DNA of 24,813 bases, taken from positions 1-24,813 of IMG/VR virus record IMGVR_UViG_3300034198_018293; one strand, 5' to 3'. Origin of the DNA: a virus. The translations under genes and the position numbers were made by a program. The notes under the pieces were generated by a model that worked only from the letters and a program-made list of their open reading frames with translations, was not told where the DNA came from and did not search any database. Positions 4,410 through 24,674 of the stretch are shown here, piece by piece (position 1 is the first letter of the stretch; every line of letters begins with the position of its first letter).

Positions 4410-4684
4410 TAGAACAAGAATAACTTATAGTCATCTGCCGTTCCGGCAACTCCGTCGGTGTTGGAAACCAACAAGAAGTGACCGCCCTCGATGAGCAAAA
4501 AATAAAGTAGCGCCCCAGGGGCTTCCTGCGGGGCTTCGTAGAAAGTCTGGTCGAGCAACAAGTCGCCGGTAACTGACAACGCGGTGCAGCCGGTCGGCGG
4601 CGTCGAGTCGGTGTATCCCGCGCCCGCGTAGTAGTTATCCGGCCCTTGAGTCGGCCCACTGGCGATCAGAGTCGTGCAGCTCAT
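4409..4684 (-). CDS. Small phage structural-region protein (91 aa)
   Basis: A 91-aa protein starting MSCTTLIASGPTQGPDN. I chose the ATG at 4684 because it overlaps the stop of the 693-aa gene as ATGA; a longer upstream extension would lie inside that gene. Its stop overlaps the next start as TAATG, so it is locked into a coupled trio. The sequence is beta-rich (LSVTGDLLLDQTFYE, LLYFLLIEGGHFLLVSNTDG) and acidic, without signal peptide or clear TM helix. The family is not recognised. Position between a nozzle-like protein and a fibre suggests a tail accessory or fibre-linker role, which is only an inference. Confidence 0.65.
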   Translation of the reverse strand: MSCTTLIASGPTQGPDNYYAGAGYTDSTPPTGCTALSVTGDLLLDQTFYEAPQEAPGALLYFLLIEGGHFLLVSNTDGVAGTADDYKLFLF

Positions 4685-6762
4685 TGCGCTCCTCCCACCG
4701 CTTCGGTTTGTTTCAAGCTGTGCATGAGAACCCGCGTCAACCGAGCGCGGCCTTTCCACTCGATCTTCAGGAGAAACTCATAGCCGAGGTACGCCGGAAC
4801 CGCCGTGGCGGGGTTCGCGTCCAACGGAGGAATGGGCGACCGCTGCTGCGGCACGTAGCCCCGAGCCAGATACGGAACCGCCGTTCCGTTCGGTAATTCG
4901 GCAGTTAGCGCGGTCTCTGTGTGAAAGCACTTGGTAAAGGTGAACCACGAAATCCACTCCGGAGCGTTGTCCGGCCGATACCACACTTGAGCCTCAAAGT
5001 CGTGATCTGGTCCGCCGCCGAGGTCATCAAACCAGACGTCGCAGCGAAGCAGCTTTTTCAGCGACATCAGCTCCTCGAACTGAAAAGCCTTCGGCACGAT
5101 AGAAGCGACGATGCGCTGCTCGCTGACCCCAATGTCGTTCTCTTCGTCGCGGGTTAGCTCCCAGAGCTGGAGCTGGCCGCCGGAAGCACTATTAGCGTTG
5201 ACGAAGCAAATAGCGAACGCCCGTTGCACGGCGTCAAAGTTGCCGCTCAGAAGTTGCAGGGTCGGCAACCCCGTCCAGACTCCGTCGTAGGTTGCCGCCG
5301 ATTTCCCTGCGTTGACTGCCGTGCTGCGAAAGTCCAAGGCAACAATCCCATTGTAGACGACGGGCGTCGGTATCGAGGTCACTAACGCAGCAGCATTGTT
5401 GAGCGTCCCCTCCCCCGCGACCGCTTTCTTGCGGCCTTCCGGCCAGCACGTCATCAAAAGCCGATCGTCAAAATAGGCAAAGGAAACTCCGTCGAGCATC
5501 CATAGCGTGTCCCGGGTCAGGATTGGATCAATCTCTGCCGACATGGGCGTCTGGCCGAAGCTGTCGAATTCAGCCCGTGCGCTGCGGTAGGTGCGAATGC
5601 CGTTGCCCTCTGCGCTGCGGAAAAAGATGTCGCCGTTCACAACTTGGACAGATCGACTAGCGGCTCCGATATCCAAAAACAACACGCGCTGGAAACCTCT
5701 AGTGATCTTCCAGTCAATGCGGGGCGCCGACACCGCAAACGAAGCAGCACCGCGCTCGCAAAACGCTACGAGATCTCCCTGCCCTGTCGCGTCATCTTGA
5801 ATCGGCACGAAGGCCAAGCTCTTCACCCGCCCCATCTGGCTGGGCAGCGCAAACGAGCCGCCTTCCGCCAGGAACCCATGCTCGGAAAAGCGCAACAGGT
5901 CGGCCGCTTCGCCTTGGGCGAAACGAACCGCAACCCCGCCGACGCCCTCGGACGCCACCGCCCCCGGCACAACAAACTTGGTAGTCGAAAGGACGTCGCT
6001 GACTACGTAGCTCCCGTTGATCATGGGGACGCTGCTGTGGCCGCTAATCGTGATGGCGTCGCCAATAACAAAGTTGTGTTCTGCCTTTGTGGTAAAGACA
6101 GTGGGAAATCCCTCCGCGCTGGAGTCGATGTCCACGTATTGTGTGCTGCCGCCGTAGATCAAATCGCCGGCCATGATTTCCCTGCCGCCATTGACCGCTA
6201 CAAAAAGCCGCCCTTGCCCGAAAGCCATCTGCTTGCCGGTCGGAATGGTCGGATTTCCATACGCTGAAGCCCGACGCACTTGCACGCCGTCGTAGACGAG
6301 AGGCTCCCCAACGCCATCCTGGATAATGACGAAGCGATCCGCTTGACAGAGATACACGTCGGTAGTCTGGACGAAGCGATCAGTGAGGCCCCAAATTGGA
6401 CGACACGAGCGATTTCTCAGGGTAATGGCAAACAAGCGGCCATCGACCGCGATTAGGATTTGGCTTGGCGCGTCATCCCGGGGGTCTTCATAGATAAACG
6501 CCCCTTGGAAAACCAACCCCGCTTGGACATAGACTGTGAAGTAATCCGACGACCGCTCTCCCGCGACTCCGTCGTCAGTGCGCCAAAACGAGCTTGGGAT
6601 CTGCCGAAACCCGGGACGAGTGCGGGGGCCGCCGCCGCCCCGGAACGTGCAGTTAACGGCATAGGCCGCTGCTCGCGGGTCAATCTGAGACGGATCGCGG
6701 CTTCCGTCCATGCCAAGCATACCTCGGAAGCCATCAACCAGTCTTTCCTGGTCGATAATCAT
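4681..6762 (-). CDS. Nozzle/tail tubular-like virion protein (693 aa)
   Basis: A large beta-rich protein of 693 aa. The N-terminus, with DPRAAAYAVNCTFRGGGG followed by RTRPGFRQI, is the 'list of segments then RPG' start typical of phage tail-tubular-B or packaged-DNA-stabilisation proteins (T7 gp12-like or P22 gp10-like in style). Around residues 205-285 a small inserted beta domain (HNFVIGDAITISGHSS, MINGSYVVSDVLS, TTKFVVPG) resembles the FCCH-like domains often found in such proteins. Many aromatic/Gly blade-like strands follow. A good Shine-Dalgarno (AGGAG at 6772-6776, nine bases before the ATG) lies within the end of the upstream gene. The likely role is the distal tail tube or nozzle. 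Confident as a virion protein, less so on exact identity. Confidence 0.65.
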   Translation of the reverse strand: MIIDQERLVDGFRGMLGMDGSRDPSQIDPRAAAYAVNCTFRGGGGPRTRPGFRQIPSSFWRTDDGVAGERSSDYFTVYVQAGLVFQGAFIYEDPRDDAPSQILIAVDGRLFAITLRNRSCRPIWGLTDRFVQTTDVYLCQADRFVIIQDGVGEPLVYDGVQVRRASAYGNPTIPTGKQMAFGQGRLFVAVNGGREIMAGDLIYGGSTQYVDIDSSAEGFPTVFTTKAEHNFVIGDAITISGHSSVPMINGSYVVSDVLSTTKFVVPGAVASEGVGGVAVRFAQGEAADLLRFSEHGFLAEGGSFALPSQMGRVKSLAFVPIQDDATGQGDLVAFCERGAASFAVSAPRIDWKITRGFQRVLFLDIGAASRSVQVVNGDIFFRSAEGNGIRTYRSARAEFDSFGQTPMSAEIDPILTRDTLWMLDGVSFAYFDDRLLMTCWPEGRKKAVAGEGTLNNAAALVTSIPTPVVYNGIVALDFRSTAVNAGKSAATYDGVWTGLPTLQLLSGNFDAVQRAFAICFVNANSASGGQLQLWELTRDEENDIGVSEQRIVASIVPKAFQFEELMSLKKLLRCDVWFDDLGGGPDHDFEAQVWYRPDNAPEWISWFTFTKCFHTETALTAELPNGTAVPYLARGYVPQQRSPIPPLDANPATAVPAYLGYEFLLKIEWKGRARLTRVLMHSLKQTEAVGGAQ

Positions 6763-7060: not shown

Positions 7061-8629
7061 TTAGGCCGTCAGAGCCGTAGCTGAAGTGGTCGGGATCGAA
7101 CCACCGCAACCGAAGGCTTCAACCACACGCGGGCAGCGGCGGTGACGAATCACGAAGCCGAGTTCAGGACGGAGGATCTTCGCTCCGTAGGCATACAGCG
7201 CCCGGAAGAACCCGATCGAGCCGTCAGGATTCAGGGTGCGATCCTGGATGTTCCTCCAGGTGAACTCACCCGACCACGAGTAGGCTGGATTGTACTTCAG
7301 TTGACCGACACCCGTAGGCTTCGGAATGAGGACCTTCATCACGTCCGCGTGGTAAACCACGGTGTCCGTGTACGGAGCGTCCTTGTAAGCCTGCGCCACT
7401 TCGTAAGCGCGACCAATGCTGGGGTCAACCAGGGTCGAGCCAGTGAAGGGATGAACGCGGGTCCAAGTGCCCGTGCCGCGAACCGCTGTTGCGGCTGCGC
7501 TAGCCCCACCGCCGCCGCTGAACGACACCGCCGGGACGGAGGTGTAGCCGCTGCCGGGATTGGTGATGGTGATCGCGGTAACCGCGCCGCTGGCGATTGT
7601 GGCTGTTGCCGTCGCAGTTACGCCGCCAGTAGGAGCAGCCGCAATCGTGACCGTCGGGGCCGAGGTGTAGCTGGATCCCCCCGCAGTAACTGTGACGGAG
7701 TTGATCGAGTCCGCTGCCATCAGCGTGTATCTCGGCGGGAATTCAACCGTGAAAAACTTAAATCCACGATAAACTCCAGACAGCCCCGGGGCCATCATCA
7801 ACGGGCTGCTGTTGCCAGAGCCCTCGAAGGCGTGACGGAAGTCGTCACGGACGTTGCTGTCCTGCATCTTCAGGTCGTAGAAGCTGAAGCGGTCACCAAC
7901 GAGCGCGTAGACTGGCGTCATTTCGTCAACCCGAGTGTACGGATTGATCGAGCCGCCGAGGTAGCCCATCTGCTCGTAGATGAATTCCAGAACGTTCCAC
8001 GACAAACGACCGACTTTCGACGAATCGACCGCGCTGTAAGCGGAGGACGCAGTGGCGTAGGTCGAAGCGTCGCCGTTGGCAAACAACTGGTTTCGGTTCG
8101 AGGGAGCCGCAATGAGACCGCCGGACGAAGAACCTTCCTGCACGACGAAGCAGTTAGCCGTCGCGATAGAGTTGAGGTATTCGTCTTGGTAAGCGTTGGT
8201 CCACACCCAGCGGGTGTTTTCAGTCAGGACGCGGATGATATTCCGGACCTGATCTTCGACCTGCCAAGCGAACTGAAGATCGTCCAAGCAAATGTCGGGC
8301 GAGTTCAGAGCTGCCTTTTTGAGAGTCGTCTGGCGCAGGGTGATGCCGAAGCGGTCAAGACTTTGACCTTCGTGGTTGCGGCACTGGCCGCCCGCTTCGT
8401 TGTTGCTGCTCGTCCAAGTCGAGAACGTGACCGGCGTGTTAGGCAGGACGCGCTCGTAAATCGGATACGAGTATTGGGTGCCCTGTCCGTCGAGCCAAGG
8501 CTCTTTGGACAAGTGTTTGAGATAGAAGTCGGAGTTCGTGATGTTCTTCGCAACGTTGTTGCGAATCAAACCGGCGTGCTCTTTGAACAACTTCTGAATG
8601 TTAGGTGCTGTTGCGTAATATACAGACAT
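7061..8629 (-). CDS. Major capsid protein with inserted beta domain
   Basis: A 522-aa protein, larger than a simple HK97-fold capsid protein. It is called major capsid from its place after the scaffold-like gene, its strong ribosome site and consensus-hexamer promoter, and its organisation: a helical N-terminal arm (TAPNIQKLFKEHAGLIRNNV), central motifs such as TENTRWVWTNAYQDEYLNS, and a C-terminal part with YNPAYSWSGEFTWRNIQD and YAYGAKILRPELGFVIRHRR. Residues about 308-388 are an insertion rich in Thr/Ala/Gly with two copies of a GGSSYTSAPTVTI / GSGYTSVPAVSF motif, flanked by sequence of ordinary composition; this is probably a surface-exposed domain. The family assignment is by context and overall pattern, not a specific diagnostic motif. 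The ATG at 8629 is supported by the Shine-Dalgarno. Confidence 0.72.
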   Translation of the reverse strand: MSVYYATAPNIQKLFKEHAGLIRNNVAKNITNSDFYLKHLSKEPWLDGQGTQYSYPIYERVLPNTPVTFSTWTSSNNEAGGQCRNHEGQSLDRFGITLRQTTLKKAALNSPDICLDDLQFAWQVEDQVRNIIRVLTENTRWVWTNAYQDEYLNSIATANCFVVQEGSSSGGLIAAPSNRNQLFANGDASTYATASSAYSAVDSSKVGRLSWNVLEFIYEQMGYLGGSINPYTRVDEMTPVYALVGDRFSFYDLKMQDSNVRDDFRHAFEGSGNSSPLMMAPGLSGVYRGFKFFTVEFPPRYTLMAADSINSVTVTAGGSSYTSAPTVTIAAAPTGGVTATATATIASGAVTAITITNPGSGYTSVPAVSFSGGGGASAAATAVRGTGTWTRVHPFTGSTLVDPSIGRAYEVAQAYKDAPYTDTVVYHADVMKVLIPKPTGVGQLKYNPAYSWSGEFTWRNIQDRTLNPDGSIGFFRALYAYGAKILRPELGFVIRHRRCPRVVEAFGCGGSIPTTSATALTA

Positions 8630-8805: not shown

Positions 8806-8832
8806 ATTATACGCAGCCGGAAAGCGTGTCAA
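8806..8832 (-). promoter_or_regulatory. Putative sigma70-type promoter for capsid gene
   Basis: Reading leftward, TTGACA (8832-8827) is followed after 15 bases by TATAAT (8811-8806). Both hexamers match the housekeeping consensus exactly, although the spacer is short compared with the usual 17. The -35 overlaps the stop codon of the 108-aa gene. Transcription would give a leader of roughly 170 bases before the capsid ATG. That leader (8630-8800) holds no gene I can support, but has a small hairpin CGAGTA/TACTCG at about 8773-8791. Confidence 0.55.
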
Positions 8833-9158
8833 ATGGCGCTGGGCTGGGATGGCGTCATCGGCAATAGATTTGGGGAATCGCCCATCCATGCAATGACCGC
8901 CGGAATTGCGGAGATGACAGCTTCAAAGGCTGCTGCCAATTCTGGAACTTGCTCTAAAGCTGGATGCAGGGTCACGCTGATGCGCTGCACGAGTTGCTCG
9001 TCTGCTAGCTCGCCGGATGATGTCGCAGGAAGCAGTTCAAGCGTGATGTCTCCGGTTGAGGCTGACGGTTGGCGTGCGTGCAGCGAAAAGATGTGGAGCT
9101 TGTCGTATGTTTTCGCTTCGACAGCAGGAACTTCGATTGGGGTAGGGTTAGTTAGCAT
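8829..9158 (-). CDS. Conserved-looking small protein before capsid gene (109-codon frame)
   Basis: The protein starts MLTNPTPIEVPAVEAKTYDK. I chose the ATG at 9158, five bases after the fibre stop; an upstream in-frame start would overlap the fibre gene by 64 bases. Residues 30-60 form a beta-rich acidic stretch (GDITLELLPATSSGELADEQ). The C-terminal half is alanine-rich and helical, with a hydrophobic stretch FEAVISAIPAVIAWMG that could be an amphipathic or weak membrane helix. I do not recognise the family. Its position between fibre and capsid genes suggests a head-associated or fibre-related role, but function is unknown. Confidence 0.65.
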   Translation of the reverse strand: MLTNPTPIEVPAVEAKTYDKLHIFSLHARQPSASTGDITLELLPATSSGELADEQLVQRISVTLHPALEQVPELAAAFEAVISAIPAVIAWMGDSPNLLPMTPSQPSAI

Positions 9159-9163
9159 AATGT

Positions 9164-11965
9164 TTAGACTGGGTAGCAGTAGAGGTCTACCATGACTTTG
9201 ACGTCGGCTGGATTTGTAGTAGGCCAACTAATTTTAAAGGAAAATTTATCTCCAGCCGACACCGGGATGTTCAAGTTAGTCGCGTCATGGGTCACAAAAG
9301 CCTGCGTTGTGTCTGCCACGAGGCCGCTATAAAGCACATAGTCCGTCGATGTCGTATTGTTGTAGAACGAAACCACGCCATCAGAGACAGTTGTCGCGTT
9401 CCCAGAGGACAATGTGATGCAGGCTTTCTTAATAACACACGCCTGATGCAAGGTGCGCTGTCTTTTGGCTACGCCACTGGAATACCCAGCACCGCCCGTT
9501 CCGTTGAAATAAGAAATAAACGGCCCAACGGTTTGTCCTGTTGTTCCTGCTAATCCAGAGGCGCTCGCGGCACTAATAACAAAAGGACTGTTAGTTGTGT
9601 TTATCGTCACCGCGCCTGTGCCGCTGGTTGGGCTGATAGAGACGTTGCTTCCCGCGACAATCTGAGTGACGCCGCCACTAGAACGGAGCGGAACGAGTTC
9701 CCACGCCGTTCCGTTGTAAATGAACTCTCTGCTATGACCTACCTGTAGTGTGGCTATCGGTGAACTAACAGTTATTGAAGACACTTCAACTGAGCCAAGC
9801 GCTGAAGCTCCAGCTTGCGCGGTAACAGCGATTACATCTCCAAGGACACCAGCGGACAAAGTAAATTGCCGAGCGCTGTTCGCGTCAAATATGAAGATCT
9901 GCTCGGATCGTTTTCCGTAAGATAAAGGATTTGTGCTGTTTGCTCCGCTGGCGGTGACAGTCTGAGTATATTTATTGTAAAAGCTGCCGCCAGCGATAAT
10001 TGCACCGCCCGTTGTCGTAGTAACATAGCAATTTGCGGCAGTTCCCAGCTTCCCATCGCTAGTCAAACTTCCATGAGTATGAATTCCCGACACCAAGCCG
10101 CGATATGCCCATGCCCCGTCCACAAGTTCGAATGCGTATAAACCCTCTGCTGTAATGGTGAGCAGATCACATTGTGAGTAATTTTCTATGCCCAATGGGG
10201 TCCCGCCCCAAAGATTCGTGTAGTAACCCACATACGGGATGAAGACGCCGCCAACATTGGCGAGAGTTACCAGTTGAAAAGGGTAAGCCTTGACCGTAAG
10301 TGTTGAATTAGTCGATGCTCTATAGTCTAAAATAAGCCGGTCCCCGTTTTTTGCTTTGTCGGTATGTGCGCTTGGGGGTGGACCTAAATTGAGGATGTCT
10401 CTCGTATCCCCATTGCCATCAATCTGCGTCTGTTGACGAGGCAGAATAATCGCTCGGTTTTGCCCAGTAACATTGCGAACCGTGAGATAGAGGTCGCGGC
10501 TCGCCGCGATTGGCATAGGCGGTTGAAGGCCTCTGCTTGTTTTTAGGTAGCCCGTGGTAGCATTAACAACATCGGTGGACCCATCGCCCACCCAATAAAC
10601 CATCCGTGTTTCTGGCATAACCGCGAGAGTTCCGCTGGCATCGGGCAATGCAATAGACCTGTTAGCCGTCGCTGTTCCTGTGAGCGTGGTGCGTTGGCCG
10701 TCGGTTCCTAACTGAATGCTTCCCTTGGCGCGGGTGTCTATACTGCCACCCCCCGCTGAAGTATTGATGGAGCCGCCGCTTAATGTGCCAGACGCGTTCA
10801 TAAGCAGAGAACCCCCGCTTCCTCCACTTCGGCTGCCAGACGCATTAAAAGGGGCCACAAGTTGCCCGACCTCTCCGCTTAAATTAATAGAACCAGAATC
10901 TCCTCCGTTACCTTCATCCTCATCTGCCGCCCCAGAATTACCGCCATTAAGCCGAATACTCCCACGACTGCCCCCGTATTTAGTCGGATGTCCAGCCATT
11001 ACTGAACCGGAACCACCATGCGTTTGAACGTCTGGCAACATTGACGTATAAACAAGTGAAGTTGGAGTGAAAACAACGCTCCATACTGCCGCGCCCTCGG
11101 TCGAGTTTTCGCACCTGTATAGGGTTCCGTCATTTAAAACCCACCGCGATCCCACAATAAATCCTTTGGTTACATCATCGGCGGTCTGCGGCACTGAAGT
11201 TCCGCAATGCTCAACGCGACGAATTGTGAACCCGTCTTGTTCCATAGCATAGAGCCGACCCGCCTCCCATTTCAGTTCGTATTGCGCCGAGCATTCAAGC
11301 GCAATGCCTTTGTATCCGCCGTTGCCTGCGTCGGTTGTTCCTTTGCGTAGCTTCGCGCCGTTGTCCAGCGTCAGCGCGGTGCTAGAAAGGTGCGTAGACT
11401 TCGTAGGATCCGAATCCGAATAGGCTCGGAACCCGTCCGGCTCCATCGTCGCCTGAGTTCCCGTGTTTGTGCCGTCGATCTTCTCTTTGACTCCGAATCC
11501 CCAGCCGCCGAACTCGGTATGCACGCTGCGGTCATTGCCGTCAGGCGAGGTGGATGCTGTTACTTCAGCGTCAACGTCAAGCGCTCCTCCAGCGAGGGGT
11601 AGGGCGAACACGCTCGACCACGAAGAAGTGCCGGGAGGATAGCCCGGATTTCCGGGGTTTGAGACACGGACGAAAAGTTGGCCCGGCCCTCCGTAGGGAC
11701 TGCCAACGGGCGTGCTAACTACGGCCCCAATTCCGTAATCCGCGCCGTTATCGTACTCGCCCACGTAGCCGGGATACGAGCTTTGAGGGCCAGCGGGACC
11801 GACGGGACCGACGGGGCCAACAGGGCCAGCCGGGCCACTCGGACCGACGGGGCCAACAGGGCCAGCCGGGCCACTCGCCCCCGGTATTTCGACTACTTCC
11901 TTCGGGGCCTCACTAATCTCGACTACCACTTTCGGAGCCTCGATGATTTCAATCACCTCGGCCAT
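9164..11965 (-). CDS. Collagen-like phage fibre protein (933 aa)
   Basis: The ATG at 11965 overlaps the upstream stop as TAATG and gives [17 protein letters not shown]. Residues about 29-61 are eleven uninterrupted Gly-X-Y triplets (GPAGPVGPV type), predicted to form a collagen-like triple helix, so the protein is probably trimeric. Middle regions are glycine/serine-rich, with short GGS-x-N/S-G repeats (residues about 340-460: [28 protein letters not shown]) suggestive of a beta-helix. They are followed by [14 protein letters not shown], a common phage fibre shaft/junction motif. The C-terminal 130 residues look like a globular beta domain. Location between scaffold and capsid genes allows a head fibre as well as a tail fibre. 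Fibre identity is well supported; attachment site is inferred. Confidence 0.8.
11805..11876. repeat. Exact tandem 36-bp duplication in collagen region
   Basis: Two identical 36-base units lie head to tail (11805-11840 and 11841-11876), each beginning GGACCGACGGGGCCAACAGG. Each unit encodes 12 residues, so expansion or contraction in whole units keeps the reading frame and changes the length of the collagen-like stalk in steps of four triplets. Confidence 0.9.
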
Positions 11966-12300
11966 TAGCGCGTAACCTCCGGAGTGCAAACCGCCACGCC
12001 TTCGATTAACCGCGTGACTTCGCTGTTTAAGACAAGCTCCAAGTCGTAGACGTATCGGCCCGCAGGAAGAGCCTGCGTTTGTGCCTCGGTAAGCGACACC
12101 TTAATTGTCCCAGCCGTCCCTCCCAGAGTAATTCCCGACGTGTTCGTCAATGAAATCGCTGCGGTCGGAGCGTCGTAGCTGGTCCGGAGCTGCATACGTG
12201 CAGACGCCCCCGTCAAACTCACCGGGACGCCGCCGCGCTTGTAGACAAGATCCAACGACCAAGTCGTGCCTTGCGGAATTGTGATGTCGTGGGAGACCAT
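11965..12300 (-). CDS. BppU N-terminal-like small structural protein (111 aa)
   Basis: A 111-aa beta-sandwich-like protein: [19 protein letters not shown], then [50 protein letters not shown] and a final [12 protein letters not shown]. This pattern (G-TW..., Lt.y.a.mqiR, l..g.yvYDLe..., G.v.v.peVTR) is the one I know from BppU-N-like phage proteins and related small baseplate, fibre-anchor or collar proteins. It sits directly before, and overlaps by TAATG, the collagen-like fibre, so it may form the anchor between virion and fibre. The stop of the scaffold-like gene lies 14 bases upstream. Family call moderate, role inferred. Confidence 0.65.
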
Positions 12301-12314
12301 CCGCTAATATACAC

Positions 12315-13523
12315 CTATGCGCCCATTCCTGCTTTCACCGCGTCGAGAAAGTCCTCGTAGTCGGCTCCGCCATCAGGAGAAACCGCAGGAGACGTTCCGC
12401 CGCCCGCCCCAGGGGTCGTGGCTGTGTATTTCTCTAAGGCAGACGACACTTCTTGATATTTCTCAAAAAGATTTGTGAGCTGCGTGTAGAGGAACGGCGC
12501 CGCTGCCGCCCGAAGCGCAAAATCGGCGCGTTGCGGGATTTCAAGGCGATCAATATCGACGGATCGCGCAGTCTGCACGACGTTGTCGATCGCCCCGTTC
12601 CACGCATCGTCCCCTTCCCGCTTGCGGAAAAGCGGAACGTTGTCCTCGACGGCTTTCCACACTGCGTCGATTGACGCGTTGTAGGTGCGGCCCATTTCCT
12701 CTTGGGCCTTGGCGGCTTGCGCTTGACGATGCTCGTCGAGCTTCTGGTTGGCGAGCTTGGCGTTGCCGGCGATCCGAGTGCGGATCCCTTGAACTTTTCG
12801 AAATTCCTCGGCCAGCTCGTACAAGCGGAAGCGGTCGAGGTCGTTCATCCCCGACGCAATGTCCACCAGCAACTCGGTTTGGCGCTCGGAGTCCGATTCG
12901 GCAAAAGCCGTGCGAAGATCCGCTTCACGGACTTCGTACTTCTTCGCTGTTGCGGAGATTATGCCGTCGATTCGCCGCAACGGCTCGACCACGGCCTCTT
13001 TGTATTCCTGGGTGGCTTCGACGCGAGCGATTTCCAGCTCACGTTCCTGAGCGTCAATGCGCTCCCGCATTGCCTTCAGTTCGGTCGGATCGGCCTCCCG
13101 GGGCTTGGATTCCAACGCAGCAAGCTTGGCTTCAAGCTCTTGGCGACGCGTCCGCTCTTCTTTCAAGGCGCGGCGTTGCTCTGCCCACTTGGTTTTGGCT
13201 CCAGGCGTAGGCGCAATGTCGTCGCCCGGAGGTTCTTCTAGATCGTCGTCTTTCGGGGCTGCTGGCTCATCTTTCTTACCTTTGAGCGCGGCGACCAACG
13301 AATCCGCCGAAGGCCCCTTGACCTCTGGCTTAACAGCCTCGGCCGTCGGAGCCGGTGCGGATGCTGGCGCTGGTGCGACAGGAGTAGCCGCTGCGGTTTC
13401 GGTCGCAGGACTCTCGAAAGCTTCGCGCATGGCGCGAGCTGCATCGAAACTGAGTGAACCGCCCGCCTCATCAGGCGACGGAGTGTTGTCGGCCGAAGCC
13501 GGAGCAGTGGTTTGGTTGTCCAT
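12315..13523 (-). CDS. Scaffolding-like head assembly protein (402 aa)
   Basis: I chose the ATG at 13523 (MDNQTTAPASADNTPSPDE), four bases after the upstream stop; an in-frame TTG five codons earlier is possible. Residues about 40-110 are Ala/Pro-rich and disordered. About 110-190 is a highly charged coiled coil (KTKWAEQRRALKEERTRRQE, ERELEIARVEATQEY). The remainder is helical and the protein ends in a short segment GADYEDFLDAVKAGMGA. Low-complexity N-terminus, central coil and acidic/basic C-terminal helix are the hallmarks of phage capsid scaffolds. It lies upstream of the capsid gene, though the fibre genes separate them. No protease motif is seen. Confidence 0.7.
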   Translation of the reverse strand: MDNQTTAPASADNTPSPDEAGGSLSFDAARAMREAFESPATETAAATPVAPAPASAPAPTAEAVKPEVKGPSADSLVAALKGKKDEPAAPKDDDLEEPPGDDIAPTPGAKTKWAEQRRALKEERTRRQELEAKLAALESKPREADPTELKAMRERIDAQERELEIARVEATQEYKEAVVEPLRRIDGIISATAKKYEVREADLRTAFAESDSERQTELLVDIASGMNDLDRFRLYELAEEFRKVQGIRTRIAGNAKLANQKLDEHRQAQAAKAQEEMGRTYNASIDAVWKAVEDNVPLFRKREGDDAWNGAIDNVVQTARSVDIDRLEIPQRADFALRAAAAPFLYTQLTNLFEKYQEVSSALEKYTATTPGAGGGTSPAVSPDGGADYEDFLDAVKAGMGA

Positions 13524-13527
13524 AAAA

Positions 13528-13809
13528 TTATTCTTCAACGAGTGACGGCATCAGATCTCGGGCCGACGGGGCTAGTCGGGCGGGCATTGCGAGTCGCTCA
13601 AGCGAGCGAAGTGCATGGAAGTAGCCTTCACGCCGAGCGTTCTGCATGGCGTTCCATTCCATAAAATTCAATCCGGGAGGAGTAGGCATCTCAAGCGGCT
13701 CGCCCAGTTCCTTGAGAATGTCGATAGCACGTTGAACGTGCGGTTCTCGTAGAGTTCCAGCCAACGCAGGGCGGAACAGCTCGTTTTTGCGGTATTCTTC
13801 GGCAGTCAT
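13528..13809 (-). CDS. Small protein between endolysin and scaffold (93 aa)
   Basis: The ATG at 13809 (MTAEEYRKNELFRPALAG) overlaps the endolysin stop as ATGA, so I prefer it to an extension into the endolysin gene. The protein is helical and charged: REPHVQRAIDILKELGEP, then FMEWNAMQNARREGYFHALR, then SLERLAMPARLAP. The motif 'N-A-x-x-EGYF-x-x-L-x-x-L' looks familiar from small phage head-region proteins located next to scaffolds, but I cannot name a family. No TM segment or signal is visible. Likely a head or assembly accessory protein; function unknown. Confidence 0.65.
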   Translation of the reverse strand: MTAEEYRKNELFRPALAGTLREPHVQRAIDILKELGEPLEMPTPPGLNFMEWNAMQNARREGYFHALRSLERLAMPARLAPSARDLMPSLVEE

Positions 13810-14995: not shown

Positions 14996-17413
14996 CTAGA
15001 CGAACGTCGGGTCGATAACTTGCCATCCACGGCTGATGGCCGTTGCTTTACCAGAATCGTAGCCGCCAACTATCGCTCTTCGGCTTGACGGATAGGGCGT
15101 GCCCGCGAAGCTAATCACATTGCTGTCAGTTGACAGGGACGGCGAGAACGACCAATTCCCCAATCGGAAAAGAAAAGTTTCGATGTTACTGGCGGTCATC
15201 TGAGAGTTATTCGTTAATTGAATTCCGTTGCGGCAGATAATGCCGTAGCCATTAGCAGCAGTGCCGGTCGTGGTTGAGATGCTGATCTGGCCTTGGCCGC
15301 TGGTGACGCCGAACACATTGCTGATGATTAGACGATCAAAATTGTTTCGGTCAAACGGCGCTTGCTCACGAACAACGTGAATCACGCTGGGACAATTTTC
15401 GATTTCCAAGTGGGTAAGTTGACCTGAAATACCGGTCCAGCGAGCGGTTCCCGCAGCGGTTCCAGGAAACACGCTACGCACTGCGGATCCTCCAGTCGTT
15501 ACGTCGCCAGTCCCAAGTAGCGGGCAGTTCCTGATGACGGACTTCTTCAGCAACGGACAGCCAATCAACGACAATCTCGTCAGATTGGGGCAATTTTCGG
15601 CGGTGAAAGTCTCTAAAAACGGCATCCCACCGAATATGCTATAAATAGCAACTTCGCCTCCGGTTACCCCAGATAGTGTTATATACGTCGGACGTTGCTT
15701 TTCCAAATCATGGCGATCAGTTACGGTGAAAAAGTAAGTAGTGACGTTGTTACTCTCGCGCAATGCTGCATGGAGCATGTAGGCCGTGCCGGTACTCGGC
15801 CTATTAAATCCCGAAGGCGGCGATCCAGAAAATGTCAGATTGCGAAAGAAGACGGCAAATCTGCCGGATGCGTACATATTTTGCTGAGCCAGAGTTTGAT
15901 ACGAGGTGCCCTGCGAAGGGCCAGTAGTACCCGCAGGAACAGTACCGCTCAACCTAAATCCGTTAACAAGGTAGTTCGCGGGGACAAACGTCGCAAAATT
16001 ATGGTTTCCAGAGCTGGTATTCAAACCGAATATCGGAGAAGGATTGGAGTTGGGCAGCGAAGTCAAACCGCTGCCTGAAATATCAAGTTCGCGTACCGAC
16101 ATAAGTGCCGTTCCGGATGATATCGCGCTAATCTGGCTCAGCGCAGGGCAATTTCGAACGATAAGACGACGGGGGCCGCGTGTGTGACGATAAAAGAACG
16201 AATTGTTACCGTACGTACCGCTTAGCGGCGGGTCAGACCAATCGCCCGTTATGGCATCGGGCACATTCCATAGTAGGTTTACGCCACTGTCATTCCGATC
16301 ATACGTGATGACTGCATTATTCGGCAGCGTCAGACTGGAAAGCGGGGCGTTGTCAGATACATCCAAATCCAATAATGTGTCTACGTAACGGAGATCGAGC
16401 GTCGTTAATTGGTTGTTGCTGACGTTCAAGGAAGCCAAAAGATACCCGCCGGGGGTCGATCCATTACCCCACAAGTTCGCCGGGGGCGGCCCGTCGGGGA
16501 ACACTAATTCGGTGAGAAGATTGTTAGAGCAGTCCAATTCGCGGACCGCGCCCCAGCCAGATCCGTCGCTGCTGACCCCAGCTATTCCGAGGGGCAAACT
16601 TGTCAGACGATTGTTCTGCACGTACCAAAACGATGGCCGATTGACGCCATCAGAAAACGATAGCGAGGTCAGTCCTTGAGTTGGGCTATTCGGAAACTGA
16701 TTGCTGACATCAAACCGCTCAGGAGGCGGCATCGCCACCGCAATGCTGGTGATTTGATTGTTCGCGACGTCATACTCGCCGGTGACTATGCAATTTGCTT
16801 CGCTGATAAAAGGAGCTGTCGTCAAATTGTTAGACCGAACGCGCAATGTTGCTATGTGCCGAGGACCGGCGCCATCAAACACAATGCCCGAGTCGGCCAT
16901 GTTGAATGTTGCGCTGGTCAAGCTGTTCAGACTGCAATCAAGGACCTGCAATAAATTGTTCCCGCTCACGTCGAGGAATTGCAGTCCGTTGTTGGGAACG
17001 CGGATCTCAGAAAAAGGCACGTTCGCCAAGTTTAGCTCGATCAGCCGCCACGGCTCGTCAAGTCCTGGGCCGGCGCCAGTGCCGCTAAGCCCGTCAGCCC
17101 AAAAATTAGGGAATCGGTAGACCATTTCGTCGTATTCATTGACGCTAAAGTATTCGGGTTTAAGCAACCTCAGTTTAATCGGCTTGCCCGTTGGAAATCT
17201 AGCGGTGGCTATCTCATTCCATCCGTTCTCTTCGGTCCCTGGAATAATGGTAACATCGTAGATCGGTTTGAATATCTCCGTAAAATATCGAAAGACTTCG
17301 TTGGTATCGTAACCGCCAAACAAAGACAAAGACACAGTCCTCCACGGCCCCACAGCAGGGTCGAATACCATGTAGTTAGAGATCTGCTCTGATACTCCGC
17401 GAATCGCTAACAT
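14996..17413 (-). CDS. Leucine-rich-repeat protein in phage operon (805 aa)
   Basis: The first 120 residues are a non-repeat domain (SLFGGYDTNEVFRYFTEIF). Leucine-rich repeats follow from residue about 122: LQFLDVSGNNLLQVLDCSLN, RVRSNNLTT, YDVANNQITSI, VQNNRLTSLPLG, ELDCSNNLLTELVF, LNVSNNQLTTLDL, then LDVSDNAPLSSLTLPNN. A further set in the C-terminal half is of the NCPxLxxLxLxxCPxL type (ENCPNLTRLSLIGCPLL, RNCPLLGTG, LEIENCPSVIHVV). No signal peptide, TM helix or enzymatic motif is seen. One base separates it from the upstream stop (TAATATG), so it belongs to the operon. LRR folds bind proteins. A virion surface ligand, a host-interaction factor or a cargo gene are all possible; the function is not known. 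Confidence 0.75.
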   Translation of the reverse strand: MLAIRGVSEQISNYMVFDPAVGPWRTVSLSLFGGYDTNEVFRYFTEIFKPIYDVTIIPGTEENGWNEIATARFPTGKPIKLRLLKPEYFSVNEYDEMVYRFPNFWADGLSGTGAGPGLDEPWRLIELNLANVPFSEIRVPNNGLQFLDVSGNNLLQVLDCSLNSLTSATFNMADSGIVFDGAGPRHIATLRVRSNNLTTAPFISEANCIVTGEYDVANNQITSIAVAMPPPERFDVSNQFPNSPTQGLTSLSFSDGVNRPSFWYVQNNRLTSLPLGIAGVSSDGSGWGAVRELDCSNNLLTELVFPDGPPPANLWGNGSTPGGYLLASLNVSNNQLTTLDLRYVDTLLDLDVSDNAPLSSLTLPNNAVITYDRNDSGVNLLWNVPDAITGDWSDPPLSGTYGNNSFFYRHTRGPRRLIVRNCPALSQISAISSGTALMSVRELDISGSGLTSLPNSNPSPIFGLNTSSGNHNFATFVPANYLVNGFRLSGTVPAGTTGPSQGTSYQTLAQQNMYASGRFAVFFRNLTFSGSPPSGFNRPSTGTAYMLHAALRESNNVTTYFFTVTDRHDLEKQRPTYITLSGVTGGEVAIYSIFGGMPFLETFTAENCPNLTRLSLIGCPLLKKSVIRNCPLLGTGDVTTGGSAVRSVFPGTAAGTARWTGISGQLTHLEIENCPSVIHVVREQAPFDRNNFDRLIISNVFGVTSGQGQISISTTTGTAANGYGIICRNGIQLTNNSQMTASNIETFLFRLGNWSFSPSLSTDSNVISFAGTPYPSSRRAIVGGYDSGKATAISRGWQVIDPTFV

Positions 17414-17414
17414 A

Positions 17415-17777
17415 TTACGCCAAAAGCCAATCGTTAAGTCCGATGCAGATAAGCACTTGCCCCGTCGAAAGACTCGTAGGGGTCAACAACACGCCGGAGG
17501 CCGCTTGCACGTCGGGATCCTGCGCCCCGTCCCCGAGAGCAAAAATCAAAATCTGAGTGCCGACATCAAAAGGAACTGCCGAAAACGGAGGCACCGAAAT
17601 GATCGCGTCATCATTGGTAATGATGACCGAACCGCTGTCTTCGAGTTGCAATGAGTAAGTCCCCGCGCCGGTAACTCGTTTCACCGGACAGGCCAGCGAA
17701 GCGGCCCCCGCCTCGCGGGCAGTGGTTATGGGAAACAGCTCCCCGCTGAACGGGTTGAACTTGTACCCCGGGATCAT
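17415..17777 (-). CDS. Hypothetical phage protein following HNH gene (120 aa)
   Basis: A 120-aa protein beginning MIPGYKFNPFSGELFPI, a 'x-Y-x-NPF-x-GxFxxI' opening seen in some small phage head-fibre or tail-needle-linked proteins. The rest is beta-rich (TYSLQLEDSGSVIITNDD, FDVGTQILIFALGDGAQ, STGQVLICIGLNDWLLA) and may form a small Ig-like or jelly-roll domain. Start and the preceding HNH stop overlap as ATGA, and the leucine-rich-repeat gene starts one base after its stop. This tight arrangement suggests it works with, or adapts, the LRR protein. I do not recognise a defined family and the role is inferred. Confidence 0.65.
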   Translation of the reverse strand: MIPGYKFNPFSGELFPITTAREAGAASLACPVKRVTGAGTYSLQLEDSGSVIITNDDAIISVPPFSAVPFDVGTQILIFALGDGAQDPDVQAASGVLLTPTSLSTGQVLICIGLNDWLLA

Positions 17778-17986
17778 TGAATGCTTCGGTTAAGCGATTT
17801 AGGGATCGCGCGCAAATTGCTACGGCGATTCGACATACCATTCATGTGATGGACGTCTTTGCCGTCGCCCTTACGAACGTGGCCGAGCTTCTCCATCTTA
17901 CGGCGAGCCTTGTTCCGTTGGCTGCGACGTTTGATTTGCTCCGGCTTCGCGTGGTAGTCGGCGTATTCTTTGGCGTAGTTTCTCAT
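17774..17986 (-). CDS. Small HNH-motif protein (70 aa)
   Basis: A 70-aa basic protein with the minimal HNH signature DVHHMNGMSNRRSNLRAI: D44, H46-H47, N49-G50 and N57-L58-R59. A strongly basic helix precedes it (KRRSQRNKARRKMEKLGH). Small HNH proteins beside portal and terminase genes are common in phages, and some stimulate terminase cutting. Others are just orphan nucleases. At 70 aa it lacks extra DNA-binding domains, so it is either a minimal endonuclease or a partner of the packaging machine. It overlaps the portal stop and the following start by ATGA on both sides, arguing that it is a functional, retained gene rather than a homing insertion. Confidence 0.75.
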   Translation of the reverse strand: MRNYAKEYADYHAKPEQIKRRSQRNKARRKMEKLGHVRKGDGKDVHHMNGMSNRRSNLRAIPKSLNRSIQ

Positions 17987-20319
17987 TCGGTGGGTACGAT
18001 TTCGGGAACCGCCATGCGGCTCGCCATTTTAACCTTGGCCGCTGTCTCGGCGTCTTTTAGCGCCAGCTTCTGGGACATCTCGGCCTGTTTCAAAGCCATG
18101 GTCGCCTGATGCCTTTCGATGTCCATCTGGAGCTTGGCTTGACGCTCCATCAATTCTTGACGGGCTTTTGGCGAAAGCTGTTCAGACTCGGCGAGCTTCT
18201 GCTCCATCGCGGCGATGCGAGCTTGCTCCGACTCGATCATTCGCTGCTGTTCGGCTTGCTGCGCCATCGCTTGCTTCTCGGCGGCGGCTTTCAACTCGTC
18301 AGCCATGCGGTCGCGGGACGCGCCGAGCTGCTGGAGACGCTGGCGCATCAGGGCGACTTGATCTTTGCGGACAAGATCGCTGCCGAGCCTCTGAACATGC
18401 TCGGCCAAGTGCGGCAAGAACAAGTCCATGGCCTGAAGAGCCGCCATCGGGTCGGCCCCGTTGGAGATGCCCTCTTGCATTTGCTCAAGCGCCTGAAGGT
18501 GTCGGCCGGCATGAATAAAGTGGTTTTCTCCGTCGCTCACTGGCATCGGGCTGCCGCTCGACATCATGCCGTTCTCGATGACCGCAAGCTTGTCGTCCAT
18601 GGGCGGACGCAAAGACGTTCCAGGAGCGGGCAAATACCGATCCACAACCTCTTGGCCGAAGCGGGCCGCGATCCTATCACGCAAGAGGTTGATCCGACCG
18701 GCCTCGTCGAGGCTTCCGAAAATTGCCATTGTCTCCTCGATTGCGATTTGACGCATCCCAGGAGAGCCAAACCCAATCGATCGGACAGGTTCAACGCTGC
18801 GCCAGCGGTAGATGGCTTCCTCCGGAACTCCGCGCTTGATGCAACGGCGGCGGAAATCGACCGCCTCCCTGCCGCCGGGTTCGATGGCGGTGTATTTGCG
18901 ACGGCTGAGTCGGCGGTAGACTTCCGTGAGCAACCGCTTCCACGGGTGGTAAAACAGATTGATCGACGCCGAGCTTAGGACCGCTTCTTGCTGGAGCTGG
19001 GCTTTAACCTCGTAAGCAGTACGCGCCTGCCCGTCCGCATTCATGGCGCGAGACTGATACCCGACAGTGCGGTTGGTCATGTTCTGCGTCAGGTCTTGCA
19101 GGACCGGCAGCATGTTGCGGCTGTAGTCTGGGATGGCCTTCTCTACAACTTTGAGTCCTGGAGGAAACAACGCGTAAGGGCCGTAGTACGACAGCGTCAA
19201 ATCTTCGAGCGCGCGGCTGCCCTGATCGCCGGGCTGCACAATTAAAGCCGAGCTTAACAGCGCACCATCGACCATGCCGCAACGCAGACGATTCAGAAGC
19301 TGGATGTGCGGGTAGATCTTAAATCCAAGCCCGCGAATGCCGTGATACGTTCCGTTGCCGACCCCATACGTAAAGGTAACGAAGCAGTTGACGGGCGACG
19401 AAAAGCGATTGGCGCGGGTAAAGAGAAACTCCTCATCCGGATCGTCTTCGTCAATCGAACCCACTGGATCGCGCAAGAACATCAAATGCGAGACTTTCCC
19501 CGAGAATTCCCGAACCCACATGTGGACTACGTCCACTTTCTTGGCGCGGCTGTTCGTATAGAGGAGGTCATTATTCTTCAGCTCGACCTCCAGCTTTTCC
19601 CACTCGCCGATTTCGTAGTTCGTCCGTTCGTTGCAGGCCCTTAAAAGCGCGTGCCGGACCATCTTGACGTTCCAACCCAACGAGGCGGCGACCTTGGTAT
19701 CGCGGATGTAATGATAAAGTTGATGGGCCTGATACTCGCGCTCCACTGTCGCGCATTCGATATCGAACTCGTTGGCCTTTGTACCCCGAGGCATACGAAA
19801 CTCGGAAAGCCCCGCCACTCTCCAACGCCAATCGACTTCGTCTTCAAAATACGTCACGCCAACCCCGTGCGAAACGAACTGGTCAGCCAGCATTTGGTGG
19901 GAAAATTCAAACTCCGGCCATTCTTTAAGCGTCCGGTGAAACTCTTCCGAGATGACGCGCTCCCACTCGACCCGCTGCTCGGCCGTTCCGTAATCCAAAG
20001 ACACTCGGGCCAGTGAATCAACCGACGCCGTCAAATCGTAGTATCCGGCCAAGGCTTGCTCTTTGAGCGCCGCTGCCTCGCCAAAATCCAAGTTTGTTCT
20101 CTCGCCTTGACCCATCTCCGTCAGGTCGTCCTGATTGAAAGGGGGCGAGCCGTTGAACATCGAGTCGATCAACGCCCGGTTCTGGGAGCTTCCGGCATCA
20201 GAATCCTTCAGGGCTTTGTAAATAGAACGGGCCGCGTCAACAGTCGTGACGCGCATTTTCGGCGGCTTGCCTGATTCGTTTAGCCCCGCCAGTTCAAGTG
20301 GTTGCAATCCGGATTCCAT
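17983..20319 (-). CDS. Portal protein (778 aa)
   Basis: A large portal-type connector, forming the ring at the capsid vertex through which DNA is packaged. The N-terminal part (DAGSSQNRALIDSMFNG, GERTNLDFGEAAALKEQALA, YYDLTASVDSLARVSLDY) and the middle (YHGIRGLGFKIYPHIQLLNR, LQDLTQNMTNRTVGYQSRAM) have the layout of podovirus-like large portals. The final 130 residues (about 650-765) are an Ala/Gln/Glu-rich coiled coil (DELKAAAEKQAMAQQAEQQR), compatible with the long barrel of portals in short-tailed phages. It lies between a winged-helix-like protein gene and the HNH gene in standard packaging-module order. Identity rests on size, coil and position; no single catalytic motif exists for portals. 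Confidence 0.8.
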   Translation of the reverse strand: MESGLQPLELAGLNESGKPPKMRVTTVDAARSIYKALKDSDAGSSQNRALIDSMFNGSPPFNQDDLTEMGQGERTNLDFGEAAALKEQALAGYYDLTASVDSLARVSLDYGTAEQRVEWERVISEEFHRTLKEWPEFEFSHQMLADQFVSHGVGVTYFEDEVDWRWRVAGLSEFRMPRGTKANEFDIECATVEREYQAHQLYHYIRDTKVAASLGWNVKMVRHALLRACNERTNYEIGEWEKLEVELKNNDLLYTNSRAKKVDVVHMWVREFSGKVSHLMFLRDPVGSIDEDDPDEEFLFTRANRFSSPVNCFVTFTYGVGNGTYHGIRGLGFKIYPHIQLLNRLRCGMVDGALLSSALIVQPGDQGSRALEDLTLSYYGPYALFPPGLKVVEKAIPDYSRNMLPVLQDLTQNMTNRTVGYQSRAMNADGQARTAYEVKAQLQQEAVLSSASINLFYHPWKRLLTEVYRRLSRRKYTAIEPGGREAVDFRRRCIKRGVPEEAIYRWRSVEPVRSIGFGSPGMRQIAIEETMAIFGSLDEAGRINLLRDRIAARFGQEVVDRYLPAPGTSLRPPMDDKLAVIENGMMSSGSPMPVSDGENHFIHAGRHLQALEQMQEGISNGADPMAALQAMDLFLPHLAEHVQRLGSDLVRKDQVALMRQRLQQLGASRDRMADELKAAAEKQAMAQQAEQQRMIESEQARIAAMEQKLAESEQLSPKARQELMERQAKLQMDIERHQATMALKQAEMSQKLALKDAETAAKVKMASRMAVPEIVPTE

Positions 20320-23382: not shown

Positions 23383-23423
23383 TAATTTTGAACGAATTGG
23401 CACAGACTTACGTCAAATTCACC

Positions 23424-24674
23424 ATGAGCAAATCCAGACTTATTGAGACAGCGACCGGCGTCCACGAACTCGAACTGAACGGCTCGCGGGTCAAAATCCG
23501 TGAGACCAAAAACGGCAACTACAAGTTTTTTCGGCTCGACTGGAAAGTCGGTAGCCGGGCCTTCCGCCGCGCTTTCTCCAGCTCCGAAAAAGCCATCGAC
23601 GAAGCCGAGCGCATTGTACGGGATCTTGCCCGGGCCGAAGGGGAAAAAACAACCGTGCGTAGCGAGGATATCGTCTACTACCGCGAATGCGCCCGAAAGC
23701 TTGGCGGCGTTCCCCTGCACGAAGCCGTCGAGTTCTACTGCAAGTTCCACCGCGTCGGCGCTCCCCGCAAGACAGTCGCCGAGATCTGCAAAGAAGTGGA
23801 GGCTGCCAGCCGAGCCCGCGAAGCCTCCAAGCGGCACATTGAAACAACAGTTCACCTCAACAAGATATGGACTTCTTGGGCGGGCGCAATGGCCCTGCCC
23901 GAAGTCACGTCTGCCTTCATCGAACGCAAGTTCATCGAGAGCGGGTACTCGGCCCACACGAAGCGAAACCTTCTGCGCGGCTATCGTGCGCTGGAACTAT
24001 TCGCCATGCGGCAGAAATACCTGCCGCGTGAGTTTGAAAGCGTGGCCGAAAGCGTTGTTGTTCCGAAAACGCGCAACTCGACGCCAGCCGTGTTCTCACC
24101 GGAAGACCTGATGCGTCTCTTCATCGCAGCGGGTCCCCGTCATATCGCCTACATCGCCATGATGGCGTTCGCGGGCGCCCGCCGGGCCGAGTTTGAGCGC
24201 ATGACCCGCGACCACGTTTCGTTGGAAGACAAAGTCGCCGTCATCGGGGCCGAGATCGCCAAAAAAGGGTCACGCCGCGTTTTGGAACTGCCGGACAACC
24301 TCTGCGAGTGGCTCGCGATCGGGCTGCCTGAGAAAGGACCCCTGACCTCCCGCAAGAACATCGAGCGGCTGTCCTTGAACAAGTCGGCCCTCAAAGAGGT
24401 CGGGCTCGACGCCAAATGGGAGCAAAACGTGTTGCGCCACAGCTTTTGCTCCTACCATCTGGCCCTGCACCGCAACGCAGCCCTGACCTCGGAGCAGGCC
24501 GGCAACTCGCCGCAGATGCTCCGTGAGCACTACAAATCTCTGGTGGCGCCAGCCGCCGCCAAGGAATGGTTCGAGATCACTCCCGAGAAGGTTAATCAAT
24601 TCGCGGGTGCGAATAATCTTACCGGGTTAATAAAATGGTCTTGCCAAAAGAAAGGAGGGGTAACAATCTCGTAA
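23424..24674 (+). CDS. int: Tyrosine-recombinase integrase (416 aa)
   Basis: This protein would catalyse site-specific recombination between attP and attB. I chose the ATG at 23424; an in-frame TTG at 23388 would add 12 residues. Residues about 1-75 are a small N-terminal domain (SRLIETATGVHELELNG, YKFFRLDW), 130-215 a SAM-like core-binding domain, and 222-385 the catalytic domain. Active-site residues seen: R253 (AGARRAEFERM), the beta-hairpin lysine near K280/K281 (AKKGSRRVLELP), R338-H339 (NVLRHSFCSYHLAL) and nucleophile Y370 (LREHYKSLV). The positions normally His in HxxR and in LGH are Asn here (N335, N361). The overall form resembles Verrucomicrobiota-type integrases. It is transcribed away from the late operon. 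Confidence 0.9.
   Translation: MSKSRLIETATGVHELELNGSRVKIRETKNGNYKFFRLDWKVGSRAFRRAFSSSEKAIDEAERIVRDLARAEGEKTTVRSEDIVYYRECARKLGGVPLHEAVEFYCKFHRVGAPRKTVAEICKEVEAASRAREASKRHIETTVHLNKIWTSWAGAMALPEVTSAFIERKFIESGYSAHTKRNLLRGYRALELFAMRQKYLPREFESVAESVVVPKTRNSTPAVFSPEDLMRLFIAAGPRHIAYIAMMAFAGARRAEFERMTRDHVSLEDKVAVIGAEIAKKGSRRVLELPDNLCEWLAIGLPEKGPLTSRKNIERLSLNKSALKEVGLDAKWEQNVLRHSFCSYHLALHRNAALTSEQAGNSPQMLREHYKSLVAPAAAKEWFEITPEKVNQFAGANNLTGLIKWSCQKKGGVTIS

Follow-up and report, generated by a model that had tools for sequence, protein, structure and literature searches.

In phage T5, the protein p132 assembles as a 12-mer into a collar that surrounds the tail tube; its immunoglobulin (Ig) fold is tied to BppU by DALI, and the fibre pb1 probably passes through this collar with some 50 residues of its N-terminus (PMC10038345). 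In DT57C, short strands from the N-termini of LtfA extend the sheets of LtfC, and these N-termini also make a lasso that lies in the ring's groove (PMC10713586); in Douge the distal tail protein is surrounded by 12 BppU ring domains (PMC13033339). At the head-tail adaptor of the podophage DEV, 15 fibre N-domains were modelled as a collar (PMC10925440), and some myophages carry collars at the neck, either bare or bearing fibres (PMC10491603). Here we analysed a 24,813-nucleotide stretch of viral DNA (IMG/VR record IMGVR_UViG_3300034198_018293, positions 1 to 24,813; hereafter the window), in which a gene for a 111-residue protein is followed by one for a 933-residue collagen-containing fibre. 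A preliminary description of the window had read the place of this pair, between scaffold and capsid genes, as a sign of a fibre on the head. We found that the pair is an optional module located at four genome places in phages that have this capsid in common, and its product is probably a swappable adhesion fibre held by an anchor collar round the neck or the upper tail stem. The cassette is known in kind but informative, as an optional clip-on collar with its fibre.

The predicted fold of the 111-residue protein is that of a collar anchor

Compared with PHROG families, the 111-residue protein matched PHROG 1084 (E-value 1.7e-25) and PHROG 3304, named "L-shaped tail fiber protein assembly" (6e-14). 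Among Pfam models only LtfC matched, weakly (0.068), and no BppU model did so at E 0.1. An anchor profile made from a 46-sequence alignment and run against PDB sequences recovered DT57C LtfC (1.9e-5) and T5 p132 (2.8e-4). The AlphaFold model of the protein (predicted local distance difference test, pLDDT, 96.0; predicted template modelling score 0.85) superposed on DT57C LtfC with a Z-score of 12.6 (2.0 Å over 107 residues), on T5 p132 with 12.4 (2.0 Å over 107 residues), on the Douge BppU ring domain with 11.2 (2.4 Å over 97 residues), on a P74-26 neck chain with 10.0 (2.3 Å over 82 residues) and on the Bas63 connector with 9.2 (2.5 Å over 93 residues), against a background of unrelated Ig domains reaching up to 8.9. 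Among the matches listed, every solved fold relative whose phage site is stated belongs to a baseplate or a neck. A comparison with predicted viral proteins listed 50 matches, most without an informative name; one was named BppU, three minor tail protein and one tail protein, and none of the 50 was named capsid or head.

The protein thus combines an Ig-like beta-sandwich of the LtfC/p132/BppU-N subtype, profile similarity to solved members and gene coupling to a fibre, and its modelled fold places it with the anchors of the T5 p132, DT57C LtfC and BppU-N kind. The earlier label "BppU-N-like" accordingly stands at the level of the fold, though not at that of Pfam. Both the fold and the gene pairing of the cassette are established by computation.

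The likeness to DT57C LtfC and T5 p132 extends over the single Ig-like domain, the profile similarity and a strand-forming fibre N-terminus, the last of these predicted in the window from its sequence. Those collars sit on the distal tail tube of siphophages, whereas the window pair lies beside a capsid gene in a genome that looks short-tailed; LtfA continues as a helical bundle and the window fibre as a collagen stem. The Douge ring domain shares the fold and the ring role expected of the window anchor, but joins ring domain and binding module in one chain, where the window has two genes. TP901-1 and 80alpha offer further cases of BppU N-terminal ring domains. Gp53 of DEV, an N4-like podophage, resembles the proposed arrangement in its fibre-bearing collar, modelled round a podophage head-tail adaptor, and differs in that the fibre itself contains the collar domain, which forms a 15-mer, and in having no separate anchor.

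The anchor is paired with a collagen-stemmed fibre

The coordinates and sizes given earlier for the two genes proved right (Table 1). The open reading frame (ORF) of the fibre spans 9164-11989 on the minus strand and would yield 941 residues from a TTG; we set this start aside for the ATG at 11965 that overlaps the anchor stop codon, and residue numbers below follow the resulting 933-residue form. One continuous gene for anchor and fibre was ruled out, since a stop codon lies between them. The presence of collagen was also confirmed: the fibre holds a run of 11 Gly-X-X triplets, a length that none of 10,000 residue shuffles reached (maximum 7), and on this basis we rejected a chance run. The Pfam Collagen model (PF01391) covers 11786-11881 at 0.0038, its 17.4 bits lying below the curated cut-off of 27.2 bits.

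Coupling of the anchor to a following gene recurs well beyond the window. We took the best 80 of 223 loci matching the 111-residue protein, 78 of them with an anchor gene call and 77 with a next gene on the same strand; the gap to that gene was between -10 and +6 nucleotides in 71 of the 77. These coupled partners comprise 55 distinct N-termini, in which the V/I/T fraction of the first 40 residues has a median of 0.35 (n = 55), compared with 0.20 for other genes of the same loci (n = 706; Mann-Whitney p 1.7e-24, not corrected for relatedness). Similar partner N-termini occur in relatives, for example MAEIIEIIGSGLTGPQGP. Because GPxGP was found within the first 90 residues in only 17 of the 55, most anchor partners lack a collagen start. 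Strand-rich N-termini of this sort fit with DT57C, where fibre N-termini donate strands to the 12-mer collar. Taken together, these data support the 111-residue anchor and the collagen fibre as a pair.

Following the DT57C analogy, the EVIEI, VVVEI and EVVEI-type repeats at the start of the window fibre would be strands donated to the anchor, and residues 1-28 would have a docking role like that of the LtfA N-terminus. In the arrangement that we propose, the anchor, probably as a 12-mer, would make a ring enclosing the portal-adaptor part of a short tail, ring size and site both being conjectural. The 28 N-terminal residues of the fibre would then add short strands at the sheet edges of the anchor and hold presumed fibre trimers in place, and a short collagen triple helix would lead outward to a swappable receptor-binding part.

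The distal part of the fibre differs between close relatives

Locus L004, a 72,313-base IMG/VR contig with a capsid region at 100%, represents the same virus as the window, and two further loci, L005 and L006, hold the pair in the same slot. Between the window and L005/L006, identity is high for the portal (98-99%), TerL (95-96%), scaffold (93-96%), anchor (95-96%) and p75, the 75-residue protein encoded after the capsid (96%). It is lower for the adaptor-like protein (84-85%), the capsid (77-78%, 424 of 522), the nozzle (58%) and a second, 632-residue fibre (32-33%). The collagen fibre matches at 57-64% over 58-69 N-terminal residues (941-residue form) and has nothing in common beyond them. 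This comparison gave the pattern of a modular adhesion fibre, a kept N-terminal attachment part with a swapped distal part, and at the sequence level the distal part appears to be exchanged between relatives. The contrast in identities might hint weakly at a neck partner for the anchor, and recombination blocks could produce the same contrast.

Distal pieces of 115 and 54 residues are 72% alike to the anchor-linked fibres of L063 and L061. Compared with viral contigs, the distal part matched five loci other than its own, each by partial similarity only, and searching 50,697 phage records by tblastn with the fibre gave no hit. The genes behind the fibres also have relatives elsewhere: the 153/155-residue gene that follows the fibres of L005 and L006 has relatives in the anchor-linked loci L058, L059, L062, L106 and L118 and also, in L017 and L028-L030, at the portal-holin fibre locus, and the 109-residue gene of the window has copies at 50-62% in the portal-holin fibre locus. 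Adhesion modules thus seem to pass between anchor-linked and portal-holin loci.

The module occupies four genome places

Relatives of the capsid gene were found in 48 loci, in 46 of which the scaffold gene is also visible. The slot between the two holds anchor and fibre in three of the 46 (L004, L005 and L006). The position of the pair between scaffold and capsid genes, as first described, was borne out, with the scaffold (PHROG, 1.5e-5) and the capsid (gene order) less securely named than the pair itself. In L035 the slot contains a lone 270-residue collagen gene with two small ORFs (L035:8334-9800), on a contig that also has an anchor-collagen pair placed after TerL. The remaining 42 slots have no called gene with at least six Gly-X-X triplets.

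We searched 29 of the 48 contigs, many of them fragments, along their whole length with the anchor profile (threshold E 0.001); the anchor was present in 14 and not found in 15. In the 11 contigs longer than 66 kb, which are not necessarily complete, it was present in four and not found in seven. Besides the scaffold-capsid slot of L004-L006, a second place lies, in L026, between the nozzle and the p75 gene that follows the capsid; in L063, a more distant locus (capsid 27%), the anchor likewise comes after a p75-like gene. A third lies upstream of the portal, directly after TerL in L035, L038, L039, L047 and L049 and after other genes in L036 and L041. The fourth is the tail block of the near-identical L042, L045 and L046, with a weaker anchor (6e-9). 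What follows the anchor varies as well: at the third place a collagen gene lies 3' of it, in L036 with another anchor-like ORF in between; a 251-residue ORF separates it from a 1550-residue collagen gene in L026; and at the fourth place a 76-residue ORF precedes a fibre-like ORF that lacks a collagen run. The two tandem anchor-like ORFs on the L036 contig (G021; L141:1462-2489) lie 5' of the collagen gene, and in the second (219 residues) an insertion splits the domain. PHROG scans of the genes before the anchor in L059 and L063 and Pfam scans of those in L059, L106 and L118 identified none of them.

Tail-side and head-proximal anchors in annotated phages

Judged by sequence, the anchor domain is shared by cyanophages, Streptomyces phages and presumed podophages. 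Among 11 annotated phage records with an anchor, annotation places it with tail, baseplate or fibre genes in six: ACP17, ACG-2014f (neck genes following), AP1, HTVC008M, Melnitz-1 (fibres and then neck genes following) and LESphi2 (a 63-residue collagen-like ORF following). Its surroundings in DC31 and a Vibrio phage were uninformative. Streptomyces records matching the anchor numbered 26, and the three compared, from the Stanwilliamsviridae Enygma (gp51-gp52), Beuffert (gp28-gp29) and Wakanda (gp25-gp26), resemble the window in having a homologous anchor with a coupled downstream gene. The Enygma anchor has 25% identity to that of the window over 110 residues, and Enygma gp52 contains Gly-X-X runs of 54 and 30 residues. 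Unlike the presumed short-tailed window phage, these three are long-tailed, with tape-measure or major tail protein genes, and their pair lies between the major capsid protein (MCP) gene and the head-tail adaptor. Together with the six tail-side records, they indicate that tail-side and head-proximal anchor places both recur. A search of the PubMed Central literature on collagen in Streptomyces phages gave, among the matches listed, only a review of SPP1.

Where the fibre sits on the virion

The head site proposed earlier had been read from gene order, and this reading lost its support: the module sits in four genome places, seven of the 11 contigs longer than 66 kb lack a detected anchor, and the solved relatives with a stated site belong to baseplates and necks. 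A stable linkage to the capsid gene would favour, without defining, a head fibre of the phi29 gp8.5 or crAss001 gp21/gp29 kind, and we found the module scattered instead. Gene order thus gives no support for a head fibre yet is compatible with the neck, and a neck site just below the head is quite possible. Since similar pairs stand elsewhere in the genomes of relatives, the neck or short tail is likelier than the head, and on balance we favour a collar at the neck or the upper tail stem.

Several observations weigh against this placement. The top match of the anchor profile in PDB is 26dk_M (3.8e-10), a "structural protein" with no stated virion site that is absent among the fold-search matches listed. 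Because unrelated Ig domains score nearly as high, the match to the Bas63 connector is weak, and a search of the same literature for the Bas63 and P74-26 necks gave nothing useful among the matches listed. The short-tailed build of the phage is judged by eye, its portal, capsid and nozzle having no meaningful profile matches to solved structures. The six tail-side records favour the tail as much as the neck, the Stanwilliamsviridae allow a head site, the scaffold-capsid slot of L035 holds a lone collagen gene, and collagen-like proteins or Ig-like domains decorate the capsids of some phages, as set out below.

The first competing explanation, which we regard as rather improbable, places the anchor as a ring at the distal end of the nozzle and takes its gene position to be accidental. 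The T5, DT57C and Douge homologues and the 80alpha and NF5 matches come from baseplates, the weaker homologue of L042, L045 and L046 stands with its fibre in the tail block, and the annotated records just mentioned point the same way. The P74-26 match, however, suggests that the fold is also used at the neck, and the presumed nozzle is far less alike to that of L005/L006 than the anchor is, although this contrast carries little weight.

A fibre mounted on the shell, in which the anchor binds the capsid lattice and the collagen fibre is displayed over the head, is unlikely, and less probable still than a distal-tail site. In its favour are the window genes lying between scaffold-like and capsid-like genes and the precedent of SPP1, whose gp12, encoded in the same slot between scaffold and MCP, is a trimeric collagen-like protein of the capsid surface (PMC6316719, PMC7602432). 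Head fibres of crAss001 attach to shell hexons via short N-terminal segments (PMC10172136), Ig-like domains also decorate the Douge capsid protein (PMC13033339), and in the three Stanwilliamsviridae the pair follows one gene after MCP. Gp12, however, is a 64-residue protein that binds the capsid directly and unaided, with no anchor partner mentioned for it, whereas the window fibre has 933 residues and is coupled to an anchor, between scaffold and capsid genes whose names have weak support. The lone collagen gene in the L035 slot is a better candidate for a gp12-like head protein. Against a shell site also stand the three other places of the module in phages with the same capsid, the baseplate and neck sites of the solved relatives listed and, weakly, given possible recombination blocks, a capsid that is less alike to that of L005/L006 than the anchor is. 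In the PubMed Central literature (titles and abstract starts) we found no paper about BppU-like head fibres among the matches listed, and searches there on collagen, head fibres and necks yielded no papers beyond those cited here. That the anchor is instead a fibre-assembly chaperone absent from the virion is very improbable: PHROG 3304 bears the name "assembly" and the partner genes are tightly coupled, but the close solved relatives T5 p132 and DT57C LtfC are virion collar proteins.

Beyond the preferred collar at the neck or upper tail stem, we tentatively entertain a wider picture, in which BppU/LtfC-type collars with collagen fibres would be used head-proximally, at the portal/adaptor or portal vertex, in uncultivated short-tailed phages and separately in Stanwilliamsviridae, so that one clip-on anchor would serve tail tip, neck or head and move as a unit with its fibre. 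If so, one small Ig-like domain with strand-donating partners would be a general phage fibre mount, and fibres near capsid genes would be better judged by their anchor than by gene order. That the module changes place between phages with one and the same capsid is a caution against deducing virion position from neighbouring genes, and the partner N-terminus offers a sequence sign for anchored fibres overlooked by searches with distal domains.

Neighbouring genes and tail type

On the minus strand, the genes of the window follow the order TerL (PHROG 2, 3.9e-20), a 273- and an 82-residue ORF, portal-like, a 70-residue ORF (HNH by eye), a 120-residue ORF, a leucine-rich-repeat (LRR) protein, holin-like (weak match, 0.015), endolysin (PHROG 17001, 1.5e-24), a 131-residue ORF, scaffold-like, anchor, collagen fibre, a 109-residue ORF, capsid-like, p75, nozzle-like, a 116-residue ORF, the 632-residue fibre, a 230-residue ORF and a repeat protein (Table 1).

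Table 1 Anchor-fibre module and neighbouring features in the window
Feature	Position	Strand	Evidence or remark
Collar/anchor protein, 111 residues, predicted T5 p132/LtfC/BppU-N fold	11965..12300	-	PHROG, PDB profile, AlphaFold model, Z-scores
Collagen-stemmed fibre, 933 residues	9164..11965	-	ATG overlaps anchor stop (TAATG)
Putative docking segment, fibre residues 1-28	11882..11965	-	Strand repeats EVIEI, VVVEI, EVVEI; directly 5' of collagen run
Collagen-like stretch, fibre residues 29-61	11783..11881	-	11 unbroken Gly-X-X triplets
Variable distal fibre part, presumed receptor-binding	9167..11782	-	No alignment to L005/L006
Scaffold-like protein	12315..13538	-	PHROG 4708, 1.5e-5
109-residue protein, putative fibre-associated accessory	8829..9158	-	Directly 3' of collagen fibre
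Presumed major capsid protein	7061..8629	-	In 48 loci, 3' of scaffold-like gene in the 46 with both; fold unconfirmed
Presumed tail nozzle	4681..6762	-	T7 gp12-like by eye; kept in relatives
Second fibre, kelch-like repeats, 632 residues	2511..4409	-	PHROG 892 tail fiber, 4.9e-7; three GGVLL-type repeats
Presumed portal	17983..20319	-	41-74% identity in 9 relatives

The capsid-like protein owes its name to gene order. Outside an inserted domain, PHROG scans of 15 family members gave no match better than 0.086, with one "major head protein" match at 0.34; its profile found no match among PDB sequences, tblastn found none in the 50,697 phage records, and AlphaFold on 15 aligned capsids reached a pLDDT of 38, which carries no structural claim. 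The portal had no PDB profile or PHROG match, and the nozzle profile gave no meaningful match among PDB sequences, with one chance-like match at 0.5. The nozzle-like protein also had a weak PHROG "major tail protein" match (0.099). Relatives of the 109-residue protein are of two kinds, one 50-57% alike and lying behind fibre-like genes (by eye) at another locus, the other consisting of paralogues 21-30% alike directly behind the capsid gene (for example L007:4723-5028).

We take the phage to be short-tailed from inspection by eye, which is not proof. Among the proteins of the window and contig that were scanned, none matched a sheath or tape measure. The repeat protein (1-1815 in the window; complete as 1223 residues in L004:14296-17964) has tandem helical repeats of about 100 residues and an end that by eye resembles the T7 gp11 adaptor; in relatives it is split or of other length, in some cases cut by contig ends. 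Pfam matches on this protein (PAX, Phasin and others) were judged chance matches on helical repeats, and a profile of its adaptor-like C-terminal part reached only E 0.35 and worse against PDB. Beyond this gene lie ORFs of 381 (partly read), 841 and 3907 residues, whose order and size resemble those of T7 internal proteins. The 3907-residue protein (L153:4062-15785, same phage contig) has almost no cysteine, and its end matches PHROG 22602, a virion structural protein, at 1.7e-30, the one profile match backing the likeness to T7; it is perhaps an ejection protein.

More than one fibre system was indeed present, as had been proposed. The second fibre, earlier called kelch-bearing, retains its standing as a fibre with kelch-like repeats (Table 1) but gave no Pfam kelch match. 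A third adhesin is perhaps formed by the 805-residue LRR protein and the 120-residue ORF (14996-17777), which occupy the usual fibre locus of relatives, from portal/HNH to holin; the KFNPFSGELFP motif of the 120-residue ORF resembles the FNPFTGNLD start of the fibre-like genes of relatives. The window capsid-like protein carries an inserted domain of about 80 residues (residues 302-385) with GSGYTSVP/YTSAPTV repeats, matching PHROG 5342 at 1.7e-18 and not present in the 14 relatives aligned; it is possibly a surface-displayed domain. Finally, a plus-strand ORF (23388-24674) pointing away from the late genes matches Phage_integrase at 3.5e-5, below the cut-off, and on this sequence likeness the phage may be temperate.

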